Positions 8,092 to 9,979 of a stretch of 64,000 bases of DNA are shown here, piece after piece (the stretch's first letter is position 1; the number at the start of each line of letters is the position of its first letter). The position numbers were made by a program, and so were the translations under genes. A model generated the notes under the pieces. The model was not told the origin of the DNA. It saw nothing but the letters and a program-made list of their open reading frames with translations, and did no database searches. This stretch comes from Udeniomyces pyricola (Eukaryota > Basidiomycota > Tremellomycetes > Cystofilobasidiales > Mrakiaceae). The stretch lies in assembly GCA_039545295.1 (NCBI GenBank), contig BCIK01000026.1, forward strand, positions 217,632-281,631. The letters are read 5' to 3'.

Positions 8092-9979
8092 TCACTTGGA
8101 TCCCCATTTGGAGACGATACCGTGGGCGAGCTGGATGAGGTCCGGGGCGACGAGATCGGAGGTACCAAAGACGGATTCGCAACTGTTTATCATAATGATT
8201 GATGGGTGTGAATGACAAACAAGGAGGAGAGAGAGAAAGGGATTAGGCCAAGATTCGAAAGATGTTAGATCACGTTGCTTGAAACATGACTGGGCAGAGA
8301 GTGATAGGATCAAAGAAGGGAACGAGTGTGATAAGTGAGAGAAAAAAAAACCAAACACAACGTACGGATCCAGTTCGTACTATGGTCGTTTACGAGATCA
8401 TGATCCGGAAGGGGTAACAAGACCCGACAGAGAACAGAGATGCGAGATGTGGTTAGTCGGTCAAAGCTGATAAGCAAGTTCTTATACAAATCACAAGGAT
8501 CAAGAGCAATTCTTGGGTATAGAGTACTCACGATGGTGCAGTAAGCAGTCTCGAAACCAGCGGACTTGGCGGCCGCAGTCTGTAGAAGAAGCAGAGGAAC
8601 GAGAGCAGAGTGAAAATTGCAGTGATGATGAGACATAGATCAAACTTTGCATATGAGCTTGGGTGGTTCATTAAGGAAGGGATGCCATATACGCACGTCC
8701 TGTTAGAACGCGGATGCAAAAAGATCAAGCGATCAGTTTACGTTGAGAAAGAGACATGTCCAAAAGTTGGGAAAATATTACATGTTGATAGGATCGTTTG
8801 CTCATAGTCAACTCACCCAAGCATGAGCCGCCGCGAAAATGGAAGGTCCGTGTCCATCGAGATCAGCGCCAACTCTCTCCCTGGCCATCTTGTAAACGGC
8901 TGGTTCGGGCTTGCCGGCTTTGCACATATCAGCTGAGAGAATGTGATCGGTATCCATTGGAACGTTGGCGAGGTCGAAGTAGCCCTGATGAGAGCAGGAG
9001 TAGCAAGGGAGCGTATATCAGTCCCTACGAACACATTGACGTCATGTCATGCCACGATTACCCGGCATCACCTGAACAGACAGACAGACAAACGAAGCTG
9101 ATAAGAATGTGAAGGCTTACTTTCACTCTCTCCACGTTGGCATCGGTACAGCAAAAGACCTCGAACCCTCCCTCACGAAGGATGGTCATCATCTCGCCCA
9201 TGCCAGGACGAGGCTGGAGTTTCTTGAACTCCCCAATGACAAACTCTACATCGTCCGCAGTGCAAAAGTTCTCAGGATCCTGTTTCAAAGGGTAAACCAA
9301 GATAGATATGCCGGGGATGAATCGCGATATGCGGGCGCGATAAAGCAGATACGAGAAGTCAGATGTAATGGACGGATCTGTCCGTTTGGAACTAGAAGCG
9401 ACGACCAAGAAGCGACACGAACAGCAATTCCAGCCTCTATTTCGTACAAGATCACAGCAAGGATTCAAGAAACGCGAGATGAGTCGTTGTCAGTGATATC
9501 GTTCCGAGACGCATACATGATTTTTCACCACAAGCCGACATTCCATATCGACTGATAACATGCAGGACTTACGAAACAAGACCCTGACAAATGTATGCTG
9601 CAAGATATCCTTGAACGGTTTGTACTGCTTGATCTGGGACAAGTAACTGTAGTCCCTCTCTGTTCCGCAGATCCAGGCGTAGAAGAGGAGTTTGGGGCTG
9701 ATGCCTTCGGCGGCAAGCTTATCTCCGAGACGGGTCTTGAGGGCTTGGGCTCCCGCGTCGTAAGAGAAGCAGGTGCCGACGACGTCGACTGTGGAAAAGG
9801 AAACAATCAGCCGGTGGTATACATTGTCAGATTGGCCCAGGACTGTAGGGTAATCGGGTGCAAAGGATAAGGCAATAATGATGGAATGGCCGAATGGTGC
9901 CTGGGAGGAGTATGGATGATGTGTTGAATAGGCGGAAGATCAAGAGCCAGAAACTAAGCTTACAAACAACAGAAGGCAT
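8092..9979 (-). CDS. Haloacid dehalogenase-type (HAD superfamily) hydrolase with three microexons
   Basis: Related to type II 2-haloacid dehalogenases, which use an Asp nucleophile; the true substrate is unknown. Minus-strand exons: 9964-9979, 9573-9788, 9423-9436, 9121-9279, 8817-8984, 8697-8699, 8532-8579, 8366-8379, 8092-8182 (242 aa, ending SKWGSK). All four HAD motifs are visible: FDVVGT (nucleophile D7), CTDAN (T127), KAGKPEP (K160) and AHAWD (D192). Three exons are tiny: 14 bases (residues 78-82, QAGIA), 3 bases (only D192) and 14 bases (YELDP). Each has AG and GT borders, and without them the frame breaks or the motif-IV Asp is lost. No targeting signal is visible, so it is probably cytosolic. 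It diverges from the DAO-type gene at 10456. The family is sure; the microexons are strongly supported but unproven. Confidence 0.88.
8697..8699 (-). other. Predicted 3-base microexon (GAC) coding the motif-IV Asp of the HAD hydrolase
   Basis: On the minus strand the local sequence reads TTCTAACAG, GAC, GTGCGT: a branch-like CTAAC plus AG acceptor, one codon, then a good donor. It sits between exon 8817-8984, which ends AHAW, and exon 8532-8579, which begins TAAAKSAG, and both neighbouring introns are phase 0. Family members read AWD followed by a small Lys-containing helix here, so the codon restores the expected Asp. Confidence 0.72.

Follow-up and report, generated by a model that had tools for sequence, protein, structure and literature searches.

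A predicted one-codon exon encodes the active-site aspartate of a haloacid-dehalogenase-like hydrolase in Udeniomyces pyricola

A hydrolase gene of Udeniomyces pyricola very probably contains a real internal exon of only three nucleotides, GAC at positions 8699-8697, which supplies the active-site aspartate Asp192. This reading derives from the spliced gene model, the enumeration of splice paths, and the conservation of the residue among homologs. The gene lies on the minus strand of a window of 64,000 nucleotides, the whole stretch of DNA that was analysed, to which all coordinates refer. The spliced nine-exon model comprises 729 nt, is open from ATG to TGA without a stop or frameshift in the exons, and encodes 242 residues. 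The features discussed below are as follows.

8092..9979, minus strand: coding span of the HAD-superfamily (2-haloacid dehalogenase-like) hydrolase gene, 9 exons, 242 aa
9964..9979, minus strand: exon 1, 16 nt coding, MPSVV plus the first base of F6
9573..9788, minus strand: exon 2, 216 nt, holds D7; FDVVGT in the alignment
9423..9436, minus strand: exon 3, 14-nt microexon, Q-AGIA; possible 3' edges 9426, 9417, 9414
9121..9279, minus strand: exon 4, 159 nt; possible alternative acceptor CCTGAG a few codons downstream
8817..8984, minus strand: exon 5, 168 nt, ends ...AAHAW, phase 0, holds K160
8700..8816, minus strand: intron 5, 117 nt, GTGAGT...CTAACAG; candidate branch point CTGAT 33 nt before its end
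8697..8699, minus strand: exon 6, putative one-codon microexon GAC, D192 (codon 192)
8580..8696, minus strand: intron 6, 117 nt, GTGCGT...CTACAG; without CTRAY, only the weaker CTCAT or TTCAC
8532..8579, minus strand: exon 7, 48 nt, TAAAKSAGFETAYCTI, phase 0
8366..8379, minus strand: exon 8, 14-nt microexon, YELD plus two bases of P
8092..8182, minus strand: exon 9, 91 nt, including the stop codon

By its sequence, the protein is classed as a haloacid-dehalogenase-like hydrolase. It matched the HAD hydrolase family of Pfam (PF00702) with 40.4 bits (E 5.4e-10), above the curated cut-off of 26.4. Its top NCBIfam match was the type II haloacid dehalogenase equivalog TIGR01428, with 79.5 bits (E 3.3e-22), which is below the cut-off of 125.4. 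The best named protein match in the first homolog search (45 homologs) was from Kwoniella, with 72% identity; several Kwoniella orthologs carry the NCBI name "haloacid dehalogenase, type II", and the named tremellomycete orthologs in the alignment are 65-73% identical. No second copy of the gene was found in the same genome, as all five matches at E ≤ 0.01 fall in this gene. As in HAD enzymes generally, D7 in exon 2 is presumably the nucleophile.

The bacterial enzyme L-DEX YL (PDB 1zrm/1jud), a member of the same HAD superfamily with which the fungal protein shares a type II-like AWD motif, was used for comparison. In the HMMER alignments, with numbering counted from the printed alignment, D192 aligned with D180 of L-DEX YL (1zrm) and with the corresponding Asp of DehIVa (2no4). 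The aspartate equivalent to L-DEX D180, which characterizes type II enzymes, is thus present, provided that the microexon is included. Replacement of D180, like that of eight other residues, is reported to lower L-DEX activity significantly, and S175 and N177 are named among the catalytic residues (PMC4899344). In contrast to L-DEX, the fungal protein has A187 and H189 at the positions of S175 and N177; the 1zrm chain itself shows A at 175. Because of these two replacements and because the score stayed below the TIGR01428 cut-off, we kept the name "haloacid-dehalogenase-like hydrolase"; the enzyme would be a dehalogenase or a related hydrolase.

On the minus strand, exon 8984-8817 ends with ...GCTCATGCTTGG and is followed by GTGAGT, while exon 8579-8532 begins with ACTGCGGCC... 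and has CTACAG directly upstream. Each of these exons is in phase 0 at both ends. The 237-nt interval between exons 5 and 7 holds CTAACAG-GAC-GTGCGT at 8706-8691 and splits into two 117-nt GT-AG introns flanking GAC (8699-8697). With GAC, the translation reads AHAWDTAAAKSAG; without it, AHAW-TAAAKSAG, which stays in frame and loses that residue only. All coordinates and letters of the original prediction, including the exons, the phase-0 boundaries, the CTAACAG, GAC, and GTGCGT elements, and the product of direct joining, proved to be correct. When all splice paths between 8984 and 8532 were enumerated (GT or GC donors, AG acceptors, introns of at least 40 nt, zero or one extra exon), exactly one two-intron path gave HAWDTAAAK, namely that in which GAC forms the middle exon between two 117-nt introns. 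A single intron with a displaced donor or acceptor was rejected as the source of the aspartate, as no such path in this enumeration yielded HAWDTAAAK. Retention of either intron 5 or intron 6 leads to an early stop. Both introns next to the microexon are long enough to be spliced and have canonical ends, GTGAGT...CAG and GTGCGT...CAG. GAC thus shows two hallmarks of a spliceosomal ultra-short microexon (≤ 15 nt): canonical flanking introns and a place on the sole path that rebuilds the conserved protein. We conclude that the proposal of a 3-base exon that is spliced in and supplies the catalytic aspartate is in all likelihood correct, given this single motif-giving path and the alignment with L-DEX D180.

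To assess the conservation of the aspartate, we used a set of 127 homologous proteins, which consisted of the 45 from the first search and 82 new ones among the best 120 of 271 from a second search. An Asp directly following the Trp of the HxW motif was present in 107 of these 127 listed homologs, and no substitute residue was found among them in an uninterrupted motif. The other 20 comprised 17 ORFs that depart from the alignment directly behind ...FAG, evidently because of an intron or the end of a contig, as well as P0045, which is frame-shifted at the motif, P0115, in whose model this stretch is missing, and P0039. Intron positions read from ORFs are subject to the caveat that an ORF that simply stops may equally be cut by a contig end. 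P0039, a metagenome protein, is the sole listed homolog with another letter after the motif W (VRSRV...). In P0039, D-x-AAAK-xxG appears 74 nt further on in a different frame; a shifted-frame match was also obtained with 63 of 2000 shuffles of the tail. This suggests, though weakly, that an intron begins right after W in P0039, which would then have the upstream (W^D) intron alone.

At least eight metagenome proteins (P0016, P0017, P0019, P0026, P0036, P0040, P0044, and P0123) read W-D without a break, and two of them, P0019 and P0026, have an apparent read-through intron upstream of W-D. If these eight are unspliced calls, as we take them to be, the W and D codons would adjoin in the DNA of those fungi. 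The original prediction had proposed to align orthologs in order to see whether the Asp and its position are conserved, and had named an Asp encoded within a neighbouring exon, with no sign of an intron, as evidence against the microexon. Conservation of the residue was upheld, whereas the unbroken W-D in the eight relatives partly corresponds to that contrary outcome. We take this to mean that the microexon would be derived rather than false. The same microexon was found in no relative, the relatives having been compared as proteins or ORFs only. A query built from exon-5 segments for relatives with a W^D intron returned nine short ORFs, none of which runs past W into an intron, and a scan of viral contigs with the alignment profile yielded no genomic DNA of relatives. 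Other ORFs end or leave the motif nearby: P0135 and P0136 leave it after GE or GA, P0129 ends at HA, and P0016, P0017, and P0044 end directly after the AAA(K/R)xxG stretch. P0128 repeats the start of P0040. Among P0016, P0036, P0039, P0040, P0129, P0135, and P0136, the introns of the gene's last third seem to lie at different places within a few dozen codons, and this region may be a hotspot for the gain or loss of introns.

The alternative that survives best, although we regard it as improbable, is a single 237-nt intron (8816-8580), in which CTAACAG is the branch point and GAC a chance occurrence, leaving a protein without the Asp that is inactive or changed in function. Joining exon 5 directly to exon 7 keeps the frame and leaves the outer splice sites unchanged. 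CTAAC, a classic branch-point motif, lies 3 nt before the AG of the microexon, where it resembles a branch point, and 123 nt from the acceptor at 8580, and intron 6 has no CTRAY motif. The nearest CTRAY in introns 2, 3, 7, and 8 is located 53, 79, 73, and 60 nt from the intron end, respectively; distant branch points may therefore be normal in this gene, and it is conceivable that CTAAC serves the 8580 acceptor from 123 nt. Against this stands the distance of 123 nt itself, together with the size of the resulting intron: GTNNGY...YAG describes each of the eight model introns, whose lengths are 117-183 nt, whereas a single intron at W/T would be the longest in the gene. AACAG-ending acceptors are found in two other model introns, and the first AG downstream of the intron 5 CTGAT, as judged by eye, is the microexon acceptor. 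The single intron is also difficult to reconcile with the conservation of the Asp described above and with a gene that otherwise shows no decay.

The chance expectation of the site likewise argues against a single intron. AG-GAY-GT with at least 45 nt on each side occurred in 0.325% of 20,000 dinucleotide shuffles of the 237-nt interval. With the additional demand of a pyrimidine before AG and a G at donor position +5, the pattern was obtained in 2 of 20,000 interval shuffles (0.01%), and YAG-GAY-GTRNGT in none of 20,000. Within the interval, the site thus arises by chance in 0.01-0.3% of shuffles. Over the whole window, such one-codon-exon patterns are not rare. YAGNNNGTRNGT occurred six times compared to 3.3 expected, and 10 of 100 shuffles were equally high, so that an overall surplus of one-codon exons across the window was rejected; YAGGAYGTRNGT was found once compared to 0.18 expected, with at least one copy in 15 of 100 shuffles. 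One YAGNNNGTRNGT match, at 16409, sits inside a short ORF (read by eye), and another, at 55683, is the ordinary exon start of a gene which we take to be ribosomal-protein-L1-like. The GAC site is distinctive for its position inside a conserved motif, between the W and the T.

Three further observations concern the window as a whole. The ribosomal protein L1/uL1-like gene (about 55475-55850, plus strand) has a 121-nt intron at 55565-55685 with the donor GTTCGT, as in intron 3 of the hydrolase gene. An unbroken run of 81 C at 26831-26911 is possibly an assembly or sequencing artefact. The ORF translations at 28073-28687, 35921-36874, and 39116-40364 (plus strand) contain X, which indicates ambiguous or withheld bases.

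Exons as short as GAC are prone to skipping. Production of both forms from a cassette exon, with inclusion giving the active enzyme and skipping an in-frame protein without the catalytic Asp, possibly in a regulated manner, appears nevertheless very unlikely. In its favour, skipping preserves the frame, whereas retention of either intron gives early stops; against it, P0016, P0017, and P0123 carry the Asp within a larger uninterrupted stretch. We give equally little credence to a catalytic switch, in which regulated inclusion of GAC would decide between an active hydrolase and an in-frame protein that lacks the active-site Asp alone.

For the constitutively included one-codon exon, we propose that the spliceosome would take out two ordinary 117-nt introns successively, by intron definition. 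With only 3 nt between them, two complete spliceosomes could hardly be accommodated at the same time, and one flanking intron is therefore probably removed before the other. Once either intron is gone, the donor and acceptor of the remaining one would still be in place, and the mRNA would read TGG-GAC-ACT, placing Asp192 in the active site. Both the inclusion of the exon and the order of splicing are what we infer from the gene structure. According to the original prediction, exons this short would need recursive splicing or strong intronic enhancers. This part found no support, since 117-nt flanking introns with ordinary ends would suffice. Recursive splicing, in which a 5' splice site is rebuilt where the first step has joined the RNA and is then used, was ruled out as a requirement, because the donor GTGCGT is already complete before any splicing step. 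Sequential intron definition would suffice, and neither recursive splicing nor special enhancers need be invoked.

The gene contains two other microexons, neither of which figures in the original prediction. The 14-nt exon 9436-9423 supplies the conserved QAG, and no single-intron join gives LFQAG; eight two-intron paths do so, all of which start at 9436, and the GTTCGT donor at 9422 was preferred. The 14-nt exon 8379-8366 lies on the sole path found for the motif TAY[CT]T[IT]YE.[DE].C..[IV][FYW]G. That one gene holds two microexons of this size (about 14 nt) makes a third, smaller one more credible. As for its origin, several relatives keep W-D unbroken and one seems to have the W^D intron alone; under the simplest history, an older W^D intron would have been followed by the gain of a second intron one codon farther downstream, which created the microexon.

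Exons of comparable size are known from other genes. In CYP621A P450 genes of Fusarium, a 1-nt exon with SRA read support is reported to be conserved in the Fusarium orthologs (PMC12940212). Like the exon described here, it belongs to a fungal nuclear gene, has AG/GT bounds, and was inferred from a restored conserved motif; unlike the present 3-nt exon, which leaves the frame intact in any case and is derived from genomic DNA only, it restores both the frame and a residue. Among intron-rich genes of basidiomycetous yeasts, bglA has tiny exons as well, the smallest measuring 5 bp in Sirobasidium magnum and 6 bp in Rhodotorula minuta, and the authors suggest that such exons are common in these yeasts (PMC9142197). 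bglA differs in being a glycosidase gene whose exons, with a minimum of 5 bp, were set by cDNA comparison (PMC9142197). Exactly one codon is also encoded by micro-exon 8 (3 bp) of Drosophila homothorax, which is alternatively spliced from a 48-bp exon (PMC7392893). That exon, in contrast, lies between two domains, encodes a non-catalytic residue, and is subject to alternative splicing. For the 1-nt exon of Arabidopsis APC11, the authors favour intron definition with successive removal of the introns, combined with recursive splicing (PMC4674806). The APC11 exon shares with GAC its ultra-short size and the proposed removal of two introns in turn, and it is constitutive, but it comes from a plant, is 1 nt long, and was tested experimentally. 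In an Ophiostoma-related mitogenome, the group II introns rnl-576 and rnl-577 are one nucleotide apart, and 3-bp exons in fungal mitogenomes had been reported earlier, as cited in the same article (PMC12308204). There too a tiny exon separates neighbouring introns, each of which occurs alone in relatives, yet the gene is a mitochondrial rRNA gene and the group II introns are non-spliceosomal. The shortest exon given for Phanerochaete P450 genes is 6 bp (PMC1184071), Trichoderma Xlr2 has a 20-nt exon (PMC11121469), and a plant survey lists 2,398 small microexons, the majority of them unannotated (PMC8831610). In the passages concerned of two Cryptococcus papers, "microexon" denotes a mapping setting only (PMC3990503, PMC8022950). 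A 3-nt exon in a fungal nuclear gene was not found in the literature searched, which is weak evidence, most subscription journals lying outside it.

Gene structures with a one-codon exon are rare but have been documented before, and gene-finding programs readily overlook them. An exon of 3 nt devoted to one active-site residue provides a stringent natural test of the minimum exon for an intron-defining spliceosome, and its position suggests gain of a second intron one codon away from an existing intron as a route by which such exons originate. Skipping of this exon would escape frame checks while deleting a key catalytic residue, and automatic models of intron-rich fungal genes can accordingly drop one active-site residue without a frameshift.
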